This document shows, piece by piece, positions 7,490 to 61,600 of a stretch of DNA of 64,000 bases. Source of the DNA: Sorex araneus. Lineage: Eukaryota > Chordata > Mammalia > Eulipotyphla > Soricidae. The notes under the pieces are model-generated. The model saw only the letters and a program-made list of their open reading frames with translations. It was not told the origin of the DNA and did not search any database. The DNA is taken from the NCBI RefSeq assembly GCF_027595985.1, contig NC_073303.1, forward strand, positions 367,299,136 to 367,363,135, read 5' to 3'. Numbering within the stretch: the stretch's first letter is position 1; each line of letters starts with the position of its first letter. A program made the position numbers and the translations under genes.

Positions 7490-9140
7490 TCTGACTTTAT
7501 AATCAAAGAAACGATCAAACTATCTTTCAATGGAGCTGTATCATTCTGTTTTCCCACCAATAATGAATACATGCCCTGTTGATTGGCAAAAGTAGTTGGT
7601 AACATCAGGTATATGAATCTAAGCCATTTGAACAGGTGTGTAATGGTATCTTTGCAATTCCCTAACGCCTAATGATCTTCATTTCATATGCTCATTTGTC
7701 ATATGCATACCTTCTTTGATGAGACTTTACATTAATGTTGAATGCTAAGAGGTTTTATAAATTGTATATTTTTGGATGCAAGTCCTTTGTTAGTTTGCAG
7801 GGATTTTTTTTTGTTGCAAATACTTTCAGACTATGAGTGGTCTTCATTTTTATAAGTGGTTTTAAAAAACAAGCTTTAATAAATTTCACTTTATTAATTG
7901 TAGGATAATATTGGGTTTGTCCTTTCAGCCTTGCCACGGGGAACTTAGTTTACCTTAAAGCAATGTACTTTCAGTATGGACACAGGAAGACAGTTAATAT
8001 TATGCTCTTGTAACTTGGGAGTTGATTGACTCCAATAATATTTACTCCTGGGCATCTGCTTTCTTGACTCAGTTGCCCTTAGTTCCTAGCACCCCAAAAG
8101 TAGGGTCCTGGCGAGGGACTGAATGGACCCTGGGCAAGCTCTGAGCTACACTGGCATCAAAATGGGCCAAGCCAAAGTGCCACAATACTCAATTATAAGT
8201 TGAGAGCATGGTCATAGAGAAATGCTGTCGTGATCCAAAAGAAACAACGAGACTAGGACCCTGCTGGGGTTAGGAAGACTAACCTGGCCTGAGGACTGTG
8301 GTCTGGAATACATAATGAGATTTCCTCAGGAAGAACGAAAATTTAAGTTTGATATATCTCTTATTGTGCTCATACAGATTGACGTTGCTAGAAATACTAG
8401 AAGTAGATTTACTAGAACTAAGTAAGTGGATTACTAACTGAGGAAAGAAGAAAGCAACACACCCTGGATGGGATCCCACCCTTAAGCAGATCTCCTAGTA
8501 ATCTGGAGTAATCTCTTTAGATGAGATTTTATCCTTGAGTAGCCTTACCTCTCTTTGTTGATTTGTTGATGTTCAACCCACCTTTGTATCACCACCTTAT
8601 GTTATTGCTATATAAACTAAGACTGTAAGAGTGGGGGGGAGGGTCAGAGTCAGAAGTAAGGGTCAGAGTCAGAAATGAGAGAGAGAAGGGCTCCAGAGAG
8701 AGAAGCAGGAGAGATCGAAAGAGAGATCAGTAGAGAGATTGGAAGAGACCAGAGGAGAGATGACAGAGACAGAGTCAAAGATAGAGAGACAGACAGAAGA
8801 GAGCACAGCAGCACACACAGAAGCAGAGCACAAGAAGAAACCATCCCAATCTGATCCATACACAGCGTCTCGAGAGCACCGAACGGGAGTGGCATGAGCA
8901 CGCTTGAGAGAGCTGCCCGAGAGCTTGCAAACACACATCAGCCTTCCACACGTGTCTGAATTTTTTACAGTTAATCTTTTCTTTCATGGATTTTTTGAGT
9001 TGTATTTTATAAGACATCACAAACCAAAGGTATTAGAGCTTTTTACTCCTATTTTTCTAAACTTTTGTAGGATTTTTTTATGCTACATTTTGTTTACTTT
9101 ATCAATTTTAAGTTAATTTTTATGTAAGGTATATGATTTC
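7490..9140 (-). mobile_element. Old LINE-1, antisense, interrupted by a solo LTR
   Basis: Antisense L1 3'-region text such as GTTTTCCCACCAATAATGAA and GGATGCAAGTCCTTTGTTAG is seen up to 7898. L1 antisense resumes after the LTR with TTTTCTTTCATGGATTTTTTG. Heavy divergence marks an ancient copy. Confidence 0.65.
7899..8969 (+). mobile_element. Solo LTR of the same class II ERV family as 25550-29484
   Basis: It starts TGTAGGATAATATTGGG, like the starts of both LTRs at 25550 and 29484 (read inward), and ends TTTTTTACA as the 26655 LTR does. It contains the same U3 landmarks (a TAGGGTCCTGGCGAGGGAC block and GAGCATGGTCATAGAGAAATG), a TATA-like TATATAAA (8609-8616), a purine-rich GA tract (8625-8815) and a CpG-bearing U5. 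The flanks ATTAAT (7893-7898) and GTTAAT (8970-8975) match at five of six bases, consistent with a 6-bp target duplication. No internal sequence remains, as expected after LTR-LTR recombination. Confidence 0.85.
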
Positions 9141-13198: not shown

Positions 13199-13380
13199 GG
13201 GGGCTGGAGTGATAGCACAGCAGGTAGGGCGTTTGCCTTGCATGCGGCCGACCCAGGTTCAAATCCCAGCATCCCATATGGTCCCCTAAGCACTGCCAGG
13301 GGTTATTCCTGAGTGCATGAGCCAGGAGTGACCCCTGTGCATCGCCGGGTGTGACCCAAAAAGCAAAAAAAAAAAAGAGA
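13199..13380 (+). repeat. Shrew SINE type A, full length
   Basis: The best type A copy here: GGGGCTGGAGTGATAGCAC, GGGCGTTTGCCTTGCATGCG, CCCAGGTTCAAATCCCAGCA, GCCAGGAGTGACCCCTGTGC, CGCCGGGTGTGACCC and a poly(A)-rich tail. The head contains tRNA-like A and B box positions for RNA polymerase III. The high similarity to the family pattern suggests a young copy. Confidence 0.95.
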
Positions 13381-14889: not shown

Positions 14890-15606
14890 TGTTTGAGACT
14901 TACTTTGTAATAATGTTTCTAGTCATTTTGTATGGATAAGTAAGAGATATATTAATCTTATAGGATGACTTTCCTGAGCACATTTCACTATAGAACCCAG
15001 ACTACAGTGCTCAGGACAAAGTAGCCTTTCCTGGGAGGGTCCTTATCCAGTTGTTTCTCTTTGGATTATGGCAGAATTTGTCCATGACCGTGCTCTTAAG
15101 TTGTAGTTAAGTATTATGGCACTTGGTCTGTCCCATTTTGATGCCAGGGTAGTTCACAGCTTGCTTTGGGTCTATCCAGTCCCTTTGTAGGGACCATGCT
15201 TTGGGGTACTAGGAGCTAATGGCAACTGAGACTTAAGTCGAATACATATGATAGATGCCCAGGATTGAATGTTATTTAGAATCAATGAACTCCCAAGTTA
15301 TAAAAGCATAGCATTAATTGTTTTCCTGTGTCTATACAAAAAGGATATGGCTCTAAGGTAAATTATACAAAGTAGATAAGGAAAGGCGAAAAGCAATATT
15401 TCACTTACAAATATAAAATCAGAGATTTCTGAGGAATTTGACTTTACAAGTCACAGGTACTGCTTAGGAGAAATGAGTGATAACAGGTAGAGAAAACAGA
15501 GCACAGAGAAGTTAAAGATGAATACCGAGAAAATGGGAGTACTTCGGGAGCATTGTGATGGGTATTACTCAGTAAACCTAAGCTCCTTGTGGCAGAGGAT
15601 AAATCA
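14890..15606 (-). mobile_element. LTR fragment (U3) of the 25550 ERV family, antisense
   Basis: Reverse-complemented, this aligns with the U3 of the 25550-26655 LTR: the block GGGATAAGGACC..., the GAGCACGGTCATGGACAAAT stretch, CCCTACAAAGGGACTGGATA, and the U3 start region where 15530-15606 corresponds to 25550-25620. R and U5 are absent. It is more diverged than the two LTR arms at 25.5 and 29 kb. Confidence 0.75.
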
Positions 15607-17849
15607 GAAACTAATGTTATCAGACACTTAAGTCTCTCACTTTCATCACTTCCGCACCTTTGAGATTTAAATCTATTTCTGAAGTCCTTGCTTGCACAGT
15701 CAGAGGACATACCATTCCACAAATTATCCCTAATCCACCTTCTTACTATTCTCACCTAATACTTCTGTGGACATTTAATTATTTATATAATGGAACTTTG
15801 AATTCTGGTTTAATATCTCTCCAACTCATTTCCTGTCACTAATTATAAGGATGGCCATTCTACATTTTGTCCTTCCAGTTTGTTGACCTCAATGTAAGTG
15901 AATTTTTCATTTTATATTATATTAGACACTTGATCTTATAATCATGTAATTCATAAAATTTATGTTAAAAATCCATGGGAAATTTATCAAAAATTTTTGT
16001 CTAATCCCTATTCTCCCTTTAAAACCCAAACTCAACTTCCAACTCATTTATCCAAGTTTACAAAATGAAACAATCTATAAATACTATCCTGGCTAAAATT
16101 AATTGATTTTTATTTAATTTACAGGTTCCTTTCACTTTTCATGTATTTGTTTAATTCATTTTGTACCTTTGTACTCATCCTGTATGTTGATGCTTCATTA
16201 AGTCCTTGAAAAAATTCTCAACTATTCCTCCCTTATTCTGATGGTGATATTGCCTTTTAACACATCGTCCTAGATGAACTCAGCCATGTGATTTTTAATG
16301 TCTTTTCGTGAACACTGCAAGAAAAAGAAAAATACATGCAATGGGATTCATTAGTTTAATTTAAAATGTCTGGCACAAAGTCTCTGCTGCCAAATAACCC
16401 AATATTCTGTCTCTTATAAGCTAAACTTTATCACTTTTCAAACCAAGCGTTACAGATATTATCCTTAAATTCCTATGCTTTTTTTCTTGCACTCATATTT
16501 GTCAACTTAGAAATAATAAAGCTGTGATATAATTAAACACAGTGTTTATTGAAAAACAGAAATAATAATTCTCTTGTTCCTTAGCCAAGTAGCAATCTAA
16601 AGGTGTACTTCACCAATGTGAGAGCATAGGGAAGTAATAAAGGATTAAGCAGAGGAAAATCATAAATTTTAGGTCAATTGCAGGAAAGTTTTGGATTGGT
16701 TGGCAAGAGATTTCAAACAGAAGCTCTAGTGTGGGGTCTATTATGACAATCAACAGGTGTCCTTCCTTCCTGTGTCCTCATCTCCAAGGAAACGAGGACT
16801 GTGCTACTGCCCTTTCACAGCCACTGATTGCAAACAAGCCGTGAGTGAGTGGGTGTTCATTAGTTGTCACTTCAGGGTGTTGGATCAGGATGCTGAGTCA
16901 AGTGATTGTCTTTCCATCTAAAGGTTTCAACCCAGCAGAGACAGATAGAGTCTGACGCAAAACAGATTCCGCATACTCAAAACATATCTTGGAGCTCACA
17001 GAGAAATGAAATAAACAAGAAATCATAACACAAACTCTCCTGTGTCTCCTTAATCATTTTCAAGTTTGCTCTTATTTACAGTCTATCTTTTCTCTTTTAA
17101 TCTCTGGATCCAAGTAAGGAGGGAAACCTCTTGATTTCAAAAACTAGTTTCTAAATAGATATTCTAGAGTCTGCTTGCCCTCATCTTCACAGCCTTTTGT
17201 TTTTGTAATTCTTCAAACCTTTTGCACCATGCACTCACATGCTAAACAAAATATTCTTTCCAGAATGCAAATGTACCCTCAAATGTCCCACTCCACCCAC
17301 CCTACCCCTGTACTTACACAAAAGAGATACCTACAAATGTTCTTAATAGCCTTGCTTTGAACCTGCACTTGACTGCACAGATGGTCTTTAATTTTTTATT
17401 GCACAAATTCTCAAGAGAATTGTTTACATGATGGAGTAAGTTAAAACAAAACTCTTTAAGTTTTATAGGTGTATTTTATCAAGTTGAGCAATTTGTCTTT
17501 TATTGTTAGCTCGTTGAGTGATTTTATCATGAAGAATTTTGTATTTTGTCAACTTTTTTCTGCATAGAGAAATGATCATGCACGGAGAGACATAATTGTT
17601 TTCCTTTTCTTCATTTTTATTAGCATATTCTATTCTATTTTATTCTATTCCGTTGACAACCACTTCCCCCAGGAGGTCTTCCAACGTATTTTGGTCTACA
17701 TCATCACTTTATTTTGCTTGTTGGAAGGAGTGAACTAGAAGGTTCCAACATGGCTTCAAGGTGGTTGCTCACTCCAGGTGAGACCTGGCAGCTCATAGTT
17801 AGTGACTGCAGCCCCTAGTCTTCAATGCCTACCTACTGATGTCTAACTT
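15607..17849. other. AT-rich intergenic DNA, 2.2 kb
   Basis: No young repeat seen. A short (TATTC)n-like run lies at 17625-17655. The block at 16740-16990 is less AT-rich and repeat-free, with a CTCCAAGGAAACGAG string resembling an RFX half-site; conservation cannot be judged from here. Confidence 0.45.
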
Positions 17850-25224: not shown

Positions 25225-25543
25225 GAGGACTGCGGATGATATGGCCTATAACAGAAAATCGGTTTTTCACAGTTCTGAAGGCTAAAAGTCTGTGATGAAG
25301 ATGTCAGTGAGGTTAGTTTCTTCTAAGAACTCTCCTGGCTTGGCAAATATCTGTCTTTCCCTATGTCTTCGTATGATATGTCTCCTAGTACATCAATAAT
25401 ATAAGAATAGAAGTCTCTAAAACATCCTCTTTTAGCTTCATTGCCACAGGGAAGACCTTATCTCCAAATGCTACATTTTGATGTAGTAGGAGGGTAGAGC
25501 TTCCATAAATGAATTTGAAGAGAACAGAATGCAGCCTATGATA
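25225..25543 (-). mobile_element. MLT1-like (MaLR) LTR, antisense
   Basis: TTTTTCACAGTTCTGAAGGC with AAAAGTCTGTGATGAAGATG, and ACCTTATCTCCAAATGCTAC at the other end, are in the order of an antisense MLT1 LTR. It is directly abutted by the class II LTR at 25550. Confidence 0.65.
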
Positions 25544-25549
25544 ATCTAG

Positions 25550-26655
25550 TGGAGGATAACATAGCCTCAGGTAGTTTAGGATTATTGGGTTACTCCCATC
25601 ACAGTGCTCCCATTCCTCTGTGTTTATTTGTAAATTCTTTCTTAGTGTTCTGTTGACTTGTAAATATTGTTTTTCTCTTCTCCTTGAGTCCACTGTAAAG
25701 TTTATTCAGAGCCATGTCCTTCTGTATGGGCACAGAAAGACTGTAGCAAATGCTATGCTTTGTAACCTGGGAGTCATTTGACTCTACATGATATTTTCCT
25801 CATGGGCATCTGTTCTCTGGACCTAAGCTTCAGCTGCCCTTGCTTCCTAACACCCCCAAAATCAGGGTCCCAACGAGGGACGGGATGGACCCAGGGCAAG
25901 CTGTGAGTTATGTGCTACCCTGGCAACGAAATGGACCTGGCCAAAACGCCTAATGCTTAACTATAGGTTAAGAGCTTGGTCATGGACAAATGCTGTCATG
26001 ATCCCAAAAGTAATAACTAGATTCGGGCCTTACTAGGGTTAGGAATGATTAATTTGGCCTGAGCGCTGTAGTGTGAGTCTGAGTCTGTGGCAAGATGTTG
26101 CCAGGAGAGCTGCCCTATAAGCCTCAATGTATCTCTTCCTGTGTCCATACAAAAATAACTAGTATTGAGATGTTGATGGAGTTTTTGGACTGAGGAAAGG
26201 AGAAAAACACCTTAAGAGGTATTTTGCCTGTGGGCAGTCAGGAAGAGCTTTGGAATGCCCCTAGGTGGTGTTCCCTTTGAACCTGGTGGGCCCTCAGGAA
26301 GGGCTTTTTAATGTTGATTTTGCTACCAGACTGTGTGTAGCCTAGAGGGCAAGATGGAGAGAGACAAGTAGGGGGAGAGACAAGTGAAGAGAAGAGAATC
26401 CGGAGAGTGGAGAGTGGTGATGGAGGAGTGAGGAGCTAGGAAGGAAGAGTGCGTGAGATGAGAGACAGAAGATTAAATAAACAGTAACTAATCAACAACC
26501 AGCTTGGTCCTCGCTCTTCCTTCTCCTGTCCTTGCCAATGACTGTCTTGATCCAGCCCATACACAGTGGCTCGGAAGCACCGTACACGGGCACTGAGACA
26601 GAGCCGCCTGGAGAGCCCGTGAACACACACCCTTTGACGAGTGTAGTTTTTTACA
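25550..26655 (+). mobile_element. ERV class II LTR, left arm (U3-R-U5), about 1.1 kb
   Basis: Starts TGGAGGATAACATAGCC and ends TTTTTTACA, two bases before a primer-binding site, so this is a genuine 5' LTR of the gag-bearing element. U3 is long (to about 26460); AATAAA lies at 26476-26481; U5 is CpG-bearing. The same family is present at 7899-8969 (solo) and 14890-15606 (fragment), and inverted at 28485-29484. By eye U3 is roughly 94-95% identical to the inverted copy, so the element is not ancient. Confidence 0.9.
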
Positions 26656-26657
26656 GC

Positions 26658-26675
26658 TGGCGTCCCTGGGCGGGT
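26658..26675 (+). promoter_or_regulatory. Retroviral primer-binding site, tRNA-Asn type
   Basis: TGGCGTCCCTGGGCGGGT begins two bases after the LTR end. It is complementary to the 3' end of tRNA-Asn(GTT) at 16 of 18 positions; mismatches are at positions 14 and 18. The typical lysine sites (TGGCGCCC...) fit less well. Confidence 0.8.
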
Positions 26676-26690
26676 ACGAACTACCAACTA

Positions 26691-26700
26691 GAGGTAAGAA
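26691..26700 (+). promoter_or_regulatory. Candidate leader splice donor of the ERV
   Basis: GAG|GTAAGA at 26691-26699 is close to the consensus donor and lies between the primer-binding site and gag, where retroviral leaders carry their major donor. Confidence 0.5.
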
Positions 26701-26781
26701 TAGCGTTCGGTGCACCCCCACTCTAGAAAGTGAGTGGGAGAACAGGATTTTTTAGTGTCCTAGCAGCAATCCCCCACTAAG

Positions 26782-28400
26782 ATGGGGCCAATTCTGGGCC
26801 CACTCAAGATCTTTCGTAGTTTCTCAAGCCAGACTGAACAGGCCTGAATCAAAACAGGACTGAACAAATCCATTTATGGATTATTTGATTTAGTGTCTCT
26901 CTCGCAGAACAGGAGACCCGGAACTCCGCATTTCCAGGGACCAACTCCGGTCCTGCTTTAAAGTAGTTTATGAGGTTAACCCATGGTTTTCAGATGAAGG
27001 AACTCTAGAAACCACGATTTGGAAAAAAGTTAAGGAAAATGTCTATAAGGCATCTAAGGAATGGACTAAGATCCCTGTGGAATTCTGGGTTACTTGGGAG
27101 ATTGTTAATTCTATTCTCCTGTTTTGCAAAAGTACAGTTGAGAAGGAGGAGGATATTAGGGATAATACAGCCACAGTTCCTCCCATACCTAAGTCTCAAA
27201 AGGGTTTTCACAGTAAAATATATTTCTGAGGCTGGTGAATATAGCTCCACTTCCAGTGCATCAGATGAAAGTGATGCGGATTATGAGTCTGCTACCACTT
27301 ACTCAGATTCTGAGTCCGAGGGTGACTCAGCCAAGTGGTCTCCAGACTGCTCGGGACATGTTTCCAATCCAGCCAGTCCAGGCTGAGAAGAAGCAGCCTC
27401 CATCTTATTGCAGGTTAAGGATGGATTCTCTCAGTCATTTCAAAAAGGCCTATGCCTCATATGGGCCTATATCTTCATACTATAGGGAGTATATTACAGA
27501 TTGGAGTAAAAAGGCTCATTGGGTACCTCAAGATTTTCACATTGTTGCTAAAACGTGCTTAAGCCCTTCTCAGTACTTGGCAGTGGAGAATGTGGCTCAG
27601 TGATGAAGCTAAGGCGAAGCTTCAAGGCCTAGGCCATGCTGGACGAAAATTTTCAGGGATTAAATTGATTTATGAGATGTTAATTGGTGAAGGGGAATGG
27701 TGCGACCCAGAAAGGCAAGTCACCTTGCCTTGTGCTGTTTTTGCTCATGTCCATGACGCAGCCCTGCATGCATGGGAGAAGGTTGATGCAGATGAGGAAT
27801 TTAAGGGAAGTTTTACAAAGATTGTCCAGAGGGCCTCAGAAGCTCATGTAGACTTCATAGGAAGGTTGATGGAAGTCATTGAAAGGCACGTTCAGGGCAA
27901 GGAAACTCAGGAGCTGTTGGCTAAACTATTGGCCTTTGAAAATGCTAATGAGGATTGCCAGGCCATTTTGCACCCTATTAAGGAGAAGGAAGACATAATG
28001 GGGTACTTGAAAGCACGAAGGAATGTTGGTTCTGTTAAACATAAGGTGCAGACTAGGACTGTTGAGATCTGTACAGTACAGAGACAAGCTCAGAAAAGAT
28101 GTTTTAATTGTGGAGAACCAGGCCAATTTATAAAGATTGCAGGGCACACCCCCCACCTTTGCTACTGTGAGAGCACATCCTGGGCCCTATCCCAGTGTAA
28201 GAAAGGAAACCCCTGGGCCAGAGACTGCAGAGACAGACTTGCACCTCCCAGGCCCTGTCCCTGGTGTAAGAGGCGACATCATCGGGCCAGAGATTGTTGC
28301 TTTAATTTTGATGCAGTGGGTGACCCCAATTCGGGACACCTGCAAGGGGGCCAGCAATGGCAGGGGGTGGCCGGGCGATATCCCCTGCCGCTCTCCCCAT
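26782..28400 (+). pseudogene. gag: Retroviral gag pseudogene (betaretrovirus-like)
   Basis: The first ATG, at 26782, begins Met-Gly, the myristoylation context of retroviral matrix proteins, but a stop follows at 26845. Matrix-like sequence continues to about 27230 in another frame, then an acidic Ser/Glu-rich linker. Capsid sequence starts near 27370, breaks at 27600 and continues from 27590 in the next frame. A major-homology-region-like segment lies near 27870-27970. The nucleocapsid has a first CCHC knuckle at 28100-28140, interrupted by a one-base frameshift, a partial box at 28196-28228 and a canonical CX2CX4HX4C box at 28256-28297. At least three frame breaks and one stop mark it as dead. 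No pro, pol or env follows: the sequence runs into the inverted LTR. Confidence 0.85.
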
Positions 28401-28484
28401 CAGGTCGTCGCTCCCAGGTTCGGGGGCTGGGTGCTGGGCCGCTCGCTCAACAGGCAAGGCCCAGGCCATGGGGCAGATGAAAGA

Positions 28485-29484
28485 GGGCCAAGCCGGTTGA
28501 TTGATCAGATGCCCTTTATTCCATTCTCTCCATGCGCCTGTTCCAGTCTCTCTGAGTTCCCCATTTCTCCTCTCTCCCCTCTCTCCCCCAGCACTCTACC
28601 TCCCTAGCTCCTCATTCCTCCACCCCAGCACTCCGGACTTTCTCCTTCACTAGTCTCTCCCCCTACTTGTCTCTCTCCACCTTGCCTTCTAGGCTACACA
28701 CAGTCTGGTAGCAAAATCAACATAAAAAAGCCCTTCCTGAGGGCCCACCAGGTTCAAAGGGAACACCACCTAGGGGCATTCCAAAGCCCTTCCTGACTAC
28801 CCACAGGCAAAATACCTCTTAAGGTGTTTTTCTCCTTTCCTCAGTCCAAACACTCCATCAACATCTCAATACTAGTTATTTTTGTTAGGACACAGGAAGA
28901 GATACATTGAGGCTTGTAGGGCAGCTCTCCTGGCAACATCTTGCCACAAACTCAGACTCGCACTACAGCGCTCAGGCCAAATTAATCATTCCTCACCCTA
29001 GCAGGGTTTGAATCTAGTTATTACTTTTGGGATCATGACAGCATTTGTCCATGACCAAGCTCTTAACTTATAGTTAAGCATTAGGCACTTTGGCCAGGCC
29101 CATCTCCATGCCAGGGTAGCACACAACTCACAGCTTGCCCTGGGTCCATGCCATCCCTTGTTGGGACCCTGCTTTTCGGGGTGTTAGGAAGTAAGGGCAG
29201 CTGAAGCTTAGGTCAAGAGAACAGATGCCCAGGAGGAAAATATCATGTAGAGTCAAATGACTCCCAGGTTATAAAGCATAGCATTTGCTACAATCTTCCT
29301 CTGCCCATACAAAAGGACATGGCTCTGAACAAACTCTGCAAAGGACTCAAGGAGAAGAGAAAAACAATATTTACAAGTCAACAGAACACTAAGAAAGAAG
29401 TTACAAATAAATACAGAGGAATGGGAGCACTGTGATGGGAGTAACCCAATAAACCTAAACTACCTGAGGCTATGTTACCCTACA
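28485..29484 (-). mobile_element. ERV class II LTR, right arm, in inverted orientation
   Basis: The reverse complement aligns with 25550-26500 through most of U3; landmarks on the plus strand are CCTCTTAAGGTGTTTTTCTC, TTGTCCATGACCAAGCTCTT and GGTGTTAGGAAGTAAGGGCA. The outer end CCCTACA (29478-29484) is the complement of the U3 start TGTAGGG. A poly(A) signal (plus TTTATT, 28515-28520) is present. Beyond it, R-U5 matches poorly and the boundary with gag (about 28380-28490) is uncertain. The flank ATCTAT (29485-29490) nearly matches ATCTAG (25544-25549). Confidence 0.85.
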
Positions 29485-29649
29485 ATCTATAATTAATATT
29501 TTTATACCTTCCCCACAGTTGTATGGTTTGAGTCAGGAAACCAGTTGGAAAGACCCTTTCTTCACATCAGAGTAATGTTCTTGGGAGTATACCTGGGGGA
29601 AAAAAGGGGGTCTCATGTCAACCATTTAATTCTTGGTGGGGTTTTTTTT

Positions 29650-40785: not shown

Positions 40786-41461
40786 TGTTAAAAAATATAT
40801 TGAAGAGGAGGGCAAGTTAAGAGTCAAGAACTGAAGGGCAGGTTAAGGGTTAACCGCTGAAGTTGCCCTTTGTAACTACTTGACTGCTTTGAAAGATGTC
40901 TTCAGGACCTGCCCCTGGGCAGGACTCTGTCACCAAATGGGCCAACAAACTGCCCCTAGGAACTGTAAACAAACATCTGCTCTGAATGGTCAACAAATGT
41001 TGAAATTAGCATATTAAGTGAAATAGGTGTGGTGTTCCCTTTTGTATGGTTTTCCTATTGATCCAATACCTGTGATTTTCTTTGATATGTATGATTCTCC
41101 TTTGATTCAATACATGTAATTTTCCCCCAATATGTGTGATCCCCTTTGATATATAGATGTGATTCCCTTTGATATGTGAGATTTTCATTTGTCAACGAAT
41201 GTTTAGATATGCAAATTAAGTGACCTATGTGATTCCCTTTGATATGTGAGATTTTCATTTCTCCCCCAAAAGGGTATAAAAACAGCTAGCTTTTTGGAGG
41301 TCGGGGCCTTCAGTTATGCCACGCTATTGAGGCACAATTGAAGGTCCCAATATAGCTATATTGGCTTAAATAAACCCCATGCATTTGCAGAAAGAGTTGT
41401 CTTGGTTTTGTTCTTTTGTCTCTCCGAGCCTCCCCCGGGCAGAGATCTGCCGACCCTAACA
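40786..41461 (+). mobile_element. ERV1-like solo LTR with repeated U3 motifs
   Basis: The ends TGTTA and CCCTAACA are inverted partners. TATAAAA lies at 41275-41281 and AATAAA at 41369-41374, followed by a U5 with TTTTGTCTCTCCGAGCCTCC. U3 carries several copies of a TGATTYCCTTTGATATGTG-like unit between 41050 and 41260, including a perfect 33-bp repeat at 41158-41190 and 41228-41260. The right edge abuts L1 sequence directly. Confidence 0.75.
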
Positions 41462-43035
41462 TTATGATCATCTAATCTTTGATAAGGGAGCAAGAAATGT
41501 GAAGTGGAGCAAGGAAAGACTCTTTAACAAATGGTGCTGGCATAACTGGACAACCACATGCAAAAGAATGGGCTTAGACCTCGACCTGACACCATGCACA
41601 AAAATCAGATCAAAATGGATTAAAGACCTCAACATCAGACCACAATCCATAAGGTTCATAGAAGACAAGGTCAGCAAAACCCTCCACGATATTGAAGCTA
41701 AAGGTATCTCCAAAGATGACATGCAACTGGCCAACCAACTGAAAACAGAGATAAACAAATGGGACTGTATTAAACTAAGAAGATTCTGCACCGCAAAAGA
41801 TACAGTGACCAAAATAAGAAGACAATCTACAGAATGGGAAAGGATATTCACCCAATACCCATCCGATAAGGGGTTGATATCAAGGGTATATAAAGCACTG
41901 GTTGAACTCTACAAGAAGAAAACATCCAAGCCCATCAGAAAATGGGGCGAAGAAATGAACAGGAACTTTTCCAAGGAAGAGATACAAATGGCCAAAAGGC
42001 ACATGGAAAACTGCTCTGAATCACTAATCACCAGGGAAATGCAGATCAAAACAACTATGAGATACCACCTCACACCACAGAGATTGGCACACATCCAAAA
42101 CAACAGAAGCAACCGCTGTTGGAGAGGATGTGGGGAGAAAGGGACCCTTCTACACTGTTGGTGGGAATGCCAACTGGTTAAGCCCCTTTGGAAAACAATA
42201 TGGACGCTTCTCAAAAAATTAGAAATTGAGCTTCCATTTGATCCAGCAATACCACTTCTGGGAATATATCCTGGAGAAGCAAAAAAGTATAGTCAAAATG
42301 ACATCTGCACTTATATATTCATCGAGGCACTGCTTACAATAGCAAGAATCTGGAAAAAACCCCGAGTGCCTGAGAACAGATGACTGGTTAAAGAAACGTT
42401 GGTACATCTATACAATGGAATACTATGCAGCTGTTAGAAAAGATGAAGTCATGAAATTTGCAAATAGGTAGATCAACATGGAAGGTATCATGTTAAGTGA
42501 AATGAATCAGAAAGAGAGAGACAGACATAGATTGCACTCATCTGTGGAATATAAAATATCAGAGTAGGAGACTAACACCCAAGAATAGTAGTATATAATA
42601 CCAGGAGGTTGGCTCCAAGGCTTGGAAGCTGGACTCACATGCTGGGGATAGAGATAGAGATAGAGAAGGGAACACCAAGTAAAATGTGGTTGGAGATCCC
42701 GGGCGGGAAGGGAGATGCGTGCTGAAAGTAGACTAGAGACTGAACACGATGGCCACTCAATACCCCTATTGCAAACCACAACACACAAAAGGAGAGAGAG
42801 AGAACAAAATGGGATACCCTGCCACAGAGGTGGGGTGGGACGGGGGTGAAGGACAGGATTGGAGGGTGGGAGAGATACTGGGTTCATTGGTGGTGGAGAA
42901 TGGACAGTGGTTGTGGGATGGGTTCTCGAACATTGTATGAGTGAAATGCAAGCATGAAAATGGGTAAATTTGTCACTGTTCCCTCACAGTGACTCACTAA
43001 TTTAAAAAACAAATAAATTAAAAACGAATAGAAAC
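41462..43035 (+). mobile_element. Young LINE-1 3' half: ORF2 C-terminus and 3' UTR
   Basis: An uninterrupted frame at 41499-42383 (294 codons) encodes the C-terminal part of L1 ORF2, including the Cys-rich segment with CWRGCGEKG and LLHCWWECQ (about 42117-42175), a putative RNA-binding motif of ORF2 proteins. Endonuclease and most of the reverse transcriptase domain are missing, so it is immobile. The 3' UTR continues through GAGGGTGGGAGAGATACTGG to an A-rich end near 43030. The open frame makes it the youngest-looking L1 here. Confidence 0.92.

Positions 43036-59883: not shown

Positions 59884-61600
<1,717 letters not shown>

Follow-up and report, generated by a model that had tools for sequence, protein, structure and literature searches.

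A class II endogenous provirus of Sorex araneus with inverted long terminal repeats: two viral DNAs joined before one integration?

How can an endogenous provirus come to have the start of U3, the 3' unique part of the long terminal repeat (LTR), at both of its outer ends? The question is raised by a unit at positions 25550-29484 of a stretch of 64,000 nucleotides from the shrew Sorex araneus (assembly GCF_027595985.1, contig NC_073303.1, positions 367,299,136 to 367,363,135 of the forward strand; hereafter the window). From left to right the unit consists of an LTR, here called A, a primer-binding site, a leader, a gag region and a second LTR, B, in the opposite orientation. In our opinion it may have originated when two viral DNAs were joined end to end before integration and the product was then integrated once by its two U3 ends. 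We give this explanation an even chance, and the evidence that bears on it and on its competitors is set out below.

The layout itself agrees with the initial annotation, which had described an LTR, a primer-binding site and gag followed by an inverted LTR, with U3 starts on both outer sides. An inverted-repeat search of the window returned arms of 849 nt with 94% identity (25541-26389 and 28645-29493), and the outer ends read TGGAGG on the left and, as the reverse complement, TGTAGG on the right, both in the TG...CA form. LTR A (25550..26655, + strand, 1106 bp, TG...ACA) is delimited by the arms and by the homology of its U5, the 5' unique part, to that of an older LTR at 8 kb. Its U3 would extend to about 26355, its R to about 26512 and its U5 to 26655; relatives sharing its U5 type terminate in a T-run and ACA. 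The primer-binding site was placed at 26658..26675 (+ strand) from the sequence and from a comparison of LTR ends, and we take it, presuming the tRNA sequence, to resemble the complement of the 3' end of tRNA-Asn. LTR B (28358..29484, - strand, 1127 bp) has its U3 at 28646-29484 and an R-U5 of another subtype from 28358 to about 28530, and it directly adjoins gag. A normal provirus has two identical LTRs in direct orientation, whereas here the orientation is inverted and the R-U5 parts are unlike.

The kind of retrovirus is clear from gag, which is split into three open stretches across two frames, all on the + strand. The first (26894..27229) is the p10, or matrix, part (Pfam PF02337, E=8e-15); the second (27217..27603), in a different frame, holds the first part of p24, the N domain of the capsid (PF00607, E=1.7e-10); the third (27563..28355) returns to the first frame with the remaining p24 and a nucleocapsid part (PF19317, E=1.4e-15; PF00607, E=4.1e-08). 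All these matches are above the cut-off, so that the domains of a betaretroviral Gag, PF02337, PF00607 and PF19317, are present together; a zinc knuckle in the third stretch (PF14787, E=8.7e-05) falls below it. A sequence search of the PDB matched HERV-K and other Gag chains, and the 229-amino-acid protein of an ENA record (P0001) is 55% identical. In the nucleocapsid part (window 28180-28310) there appears to be an extra zinc-knuckle unit, and P0001 lacks 23 residues there. A search of a viral-contig collection did not find a relative. Part of the open frames of the window was searched against Pfam, and in ten of them (eight flanking ones, 25385-25705, which reaches the left LTR, and 41460-42383) there was no retroviral domain; the same ten gave three weak matches below the cut-off.

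The unit is thus a defective class II (betaretrovirus-like) endogenous provirus. It is like other proviruses of this class, those with a HERV-K type Gag, in its p10 and p24, in the 6-bp duplications and in TG...CA LTRs of about 1.1 kb. It differs from them in that the second LTR is inverted and has another R-U5 type and in that the unit lacks pro, pol and env. We do not propose a host function, because the element is defective, its gag is broken, and pol and env are gone.

Did this unit integrate as a whole? Integration leaves a target-site duplication, and the hexamers outside the unit, ATCTAG at 25544..25549 and ATCTAT at 29485..29490, agree at five of six positions, as had been noticed initially; both may be copies of one duplication. 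A match this good is found by chance at 271 of 59975 places in the window for the left hexamer (0.45%) and at 451 of 59975 for the right one (0.75%), and 1351 of 200000 random pairs of hexamers from the window reach it (0.68%). For comparison, 45 loci of the family in the genome were tried, and a script located both LTR ends in 23 of them, 22 being left without a score. The 6-bp duplications agree at 5 or 6 positions in 15 of the 23 scored copies and at 1 to 4 in the other eight. Among these eight, the script overshot the end in L005, L039 and L049, which by eye read as 6, 5 and 6 of 6; L006, L008, L019 and L042 stay below 5, and L040, a 3' LTR, has internal sequence next to it, so that its duplication is not scorable. 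The window has an older solo LTR of the superfamily (7899-8969, + strand), with the same U5 type as A and the hexamers ATTAAT/GTTAAT, again five of six. Judged by this LTR and by the scored relatives, a match at five of six is what a real duplication in the family ordinarily looks like. We therefore favour a single integration: the LTR starts are exact at both outer ends, the hexamers agree at five positions, and the relatives have duplications of 6 bp.

The next question is whether A and B are the two LTRs of one provirus. The U3 parts match and, less well, the R parts; the U5 of B, down to 28358, belongs to another subtype. When A and B were compared, none of 1000 shuffles was as good for the R block and 629 of 1000 were for U5, meaning that there is no similarity in U5, while the U5 of A has its homologue in the older LTR at 8 kb (score 71, 0/1000 shuffles). 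A genome search with 28200-28660, in which the best 40 of 3283 candidates were scored, returned 39 other places that match inside 28358-28660 at 78-86%. Of these, 21 start exactly at 28358 and 18 further in; none of the 39 spans both gag and the inverted LTR. Since they all start at or inside 28358 and none earlier, 28358-28530 is the R-U5 of a second subtype. An anchored extension test of 28354-28482 had already hinted at U5 (1, 2, 0 and 1 of 200 shuffles). A reading that closes the right arm at the poly(A) site, in R, and treats 28354-28482 as filler was rejected, this stretch being the U5 of the other subtype in genome copies. Rfam gave no match at the gathering threshold in the window; four matches below it in the junction stretch (E 1.2-8.1) were taken as chance.

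Both R-U5 subtypes occur alongside similar U3. A query of the B type had brought in L002-L020, which carry this type; the A type is found in L022-L024, L026-L028, L039, L040, L042 and L043, retrieved by U3. Judging from the sequences, A and B are not a pair: their U3 are alike and their R-U5 come from two subtypes. Because of this unlikeness, two viral genomes were probably involved. As a separate observation, the LTR family (L002-L020, L022-L055) seems to shuffle its parts: the first half of U3 is fairly uniform and the second half more varied, and the two R-U5 types appear in varying combinations, a pattern to be expected from template switching among packaged RNAs.

What, then, does the inner junction look like? 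All 12 distinct B-type copies outside the window extend, in the comparison of LTR ends, past the equivalent of 28358. In eleven of them (L002, L003, L005, L006, L008, L010, L012, L014-L016 and L019) a T-run and CA follow after about 12-15 bp, and the twelfth, L013, runs on without a clear end. As its relatives run on for some 12-15 bp, B lacks about 13 bp of the U5 tip. A candidate in which the CA at 28358 was the true LTR terminus and gag had been hit by integrase was discarded for the same reason. On the other side, the gag of L040, the one relative compared, can be aligned to 28355 and diverges after it, which leaves two bases, AA at 28356..28357, that fit neither this gag nor the tail of the right-type U5. 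End joining typically leaves a loss of a few bases together with stray bases, and the junction, with about 13 bp lost and two bases of filler, looks like its product.

Do the U3 arms, at least, come from one source? The identity of 94-95% that had been estimated by eye is 94.0% on alignment of 25550-26389 with the reverse complement of 28646-29484 (790 of 840 columns, with 31 transitions, 18 transversions and 1 gap). In the genome searches with U3, the best 40 of each candidate list were scored. With the first 451 bp of A as the query, B is the best match by 2 bits (best 40 of 6418); with the inner U3 of A, B leads clearly, at 648 bits to 622 (best 40 of 5778). The next-best match after B in this latter search, L039, is a solo LTR 85 kb upstream (G000:C2, about 367239110-367240195), which has an A-type U5 and hexamers of its own, CACATC/CACGTC by eye. 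The inner part of B as the query puts A fourth after B itself, the match stopping at the subtype change (best 40 of 6824).

A tree of U3 was built from 26 rows, namely A, B and the 24 of the 45 loci that passed filters on length and identity. A and B are sisters in it with support 100/98, on a shared branch of 0.014 and with tips of 0.036 and 0.027. By segment, the support is 94/91, not starred, for the first part (45 rows). Eight sites are common to A and B and present in at most 15% of the 24 others, five of the eight being in none of them, and the closeness of A and B over the whole U3 is unmatched by any of the 276 pairs among the 24. Private changes number 15 on A and 16 on B when clear cases are counted with two outgroup LTRs, and 25 on A and 16 on B in a hand count of 48 listed sites; that the numbers on both arms are similar was counted in favour of an origin as a single unit. 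By these comparisons the arms of A and B are related; they may descend from one source, or gene conversion may have acted on inverted copies lying close together. According to PMC7251063, gene conversion between the LTRs of one element is frequent in plants. A sharp conversion tract was considered here and rejected, as the longest run in which A equals B is not unusual (6259 of 10000 shuffles).

Taken together, we would describe the origin of the unit as follows. An infected germ-line cell would have contained two viral DNAs of one LTR family with unlike R-U5, for example copies of two co-packaged RNAs. The broken gag end of the first would have been end-joined to the U5 end of the second, which was trimmed by about 13 bp. 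The joined linear DNA would have kept the U3 start of each partner, that is, two natural substrates of integrase, and the enzyme would have used both in a single integration with the usual 6-bp duplication. Had the second partner been a whole viral DNA, it would later have lost its interior through ordinary recombination between its LTRs, leaving a solo LTR. The inner U3 may also have been made more alike by gene conversion from one inverted arm to the other.

Several points weigh against this origin. When the first 451 bp of B are the query, 28 of 38 other copies outscore A and one ties (best 40 of 5521); the initial proposal that the whole inverted unit had integrated once thereby loses part of the force it drew from U3 identity and retains the hexamers and the 6-bp duplications of relatives. 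On this showing, the identity would be weak evidence for a single origin of the arms. In the first 285 bp of U3 the sisterhood of A and B is without support (76/0), and over 25550-25828 B has 20 of 43 copies nearer to it than A, and A has 7 of 43 nearer to it than B. The distance between A and B by thirds of U3 (17/279, 22/280 and 10/280) is what a conversion tract might give. The hexamers are short, 6 bp, and unlike at one base. A whole second viral DNA, if there was one, would require the extra step that leaves one LTR. In titles and the opening lines of abstracts, with few subscription journals covered, no description was found of a provirus integrated with its second LTR inverted and with one outer duplication. 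Finally, two insertions near each other could have come to the same appearance by an ordinary later deletion.

Such a deletion is the most serious competitor. A left-type provirus would have had a right-type LTR or provirus of the same family nearby, to its right and in the opposite orientation, and a deletion that began within gag and ended 13 bp into the right LTR would have fused the two. The unlike R-U5 types then fit without extra assumptions, and the junction resembles an end-joined deletion. That U3 sisterhood has support in 26001-26389 (95/93, 28 rows) but none in the first 285 bp (76/0) also speaks for it, gene conversion having made the arms sisters. The price is that gene conversion becomes a necessity, with the longest run of A=B being an ordinary one, and that the hexamers must be unrelated duplications which match by chance, at the 0.45-0.75% given above. 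Given a family of this size, with 6418 and 5521 candidates at first look (40 of each scored), and several copies nearby, in the window near 7.9-9.0 and 14.9-15.6 kb and at two places within 100 kb upstream, we hold this history to be a real possibility, somewhat short of even.

A switch of template during reverse transcription is, in our view, improbable. A strand growing in gag would have jumped to another template and there copied an LTR in reverse orientation; the resulting palindrome-like DNA, with its second U3 end set by the polypurine tract, would have integrated once. It predicts the same outer ends and duplication as end joining before integration does, and a switch between two packaged RNAs would account for the two R-U5 types. 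However, the switch point, about 13 bp inside U5 and with two unmatched bases, has no special meaning in reverse transcription. An assembly error that joined two loci is very unlikely, given a window that is gap-free, with zero N bases, and a locus interior to a contig of 381 Mb. Autointegration, which was one of the origins first suggested and whose inversion product would contain an LTR-gag-inverted LTR segment, is contradicted almost completely, because it would join exact LTR ends and the right LTR stops about 13 bp short of its relatives' terminus, with two stray bases at the junction and an R-U5 unlike that of A. The circular viral DNA with an inverted segment, taken up below, is reportedly made by integrase at such exact ends.

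It remains to compare the unit, as a proposed product of end joining before integration, with systems that have been described. In aberrant integrations of human immunodeficiency virus (HIV) and avian sarcoma/leukosis virus (ASLV), host enzymes join faulty viral DNA ends (PMC5041404). These events are like ours in the integrase-free joining of an end, in which viral sequence may be lost or added. They differ in that the faulty end meets host DNA and the host sequence is rearranged, whereas here it is internal, on gag, and the outer ends look normal. The viral DNA of Shoemaker et al. 1980, as it is cited in PMC12789967, also has an inverted viral segment but is a circle. The HIV proviruses with asymmetric LTRs or inversions in PMC9278108 are alike in having differing LTRs or inverted stretches; in the part of that paper at hand they are 3'-LTR deletions and inversions of the genome, not an inverted LTR as an outer end.

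We consider it evenly balanced whether the locus preserves, in the germ line, a linear retroviral DNA made by joining two different viral DNAs and having a U3 terminus on either side, a natural case in which integrase used a U3-U3 instead of a U3-U5 pair. Should the locus be a single unit, it would document that concerted integration of two U3 ends can happen in the germ line of an animal, and it would offer a signature that can be searched for: inverted LTRs, one outer duplication and an end-joined scar inside. If the joining before integration is true, heterogeneous unintegrated viral DNAs can be fused before they integrate and then be inherited. If instead two insertions and a deletion made the locus, it is a warning that a high U3 identity of inverted LTRs is no proof of one origin.

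Some further features of the window and its surroundings may be added. The similarity of L039 prompted the thought of a local segmental duplication, which was dropped, the left 2-kb flank having no match in the 100 kb upstream; the right 2-kb flank matches only repeats that recur there many times. Another old LTR of the superfamily lies at about 14919-15610 on the - strand; it is 70-71% similar over some 510 bp, and its U5 end was not recognised. ARAGORN predicts a tRNA-Ala (TGC) at 13205-13277 on the + strand, within a repeat that has further copies in the window and upstream. About 30 kb from the provirus, melanocortin receptor 4 is encoded by an open frame at 59884-61044 on the - strand (E 1.5e-201 for the best match in the PDB), which has a run of seven glycines near its N-terminus.

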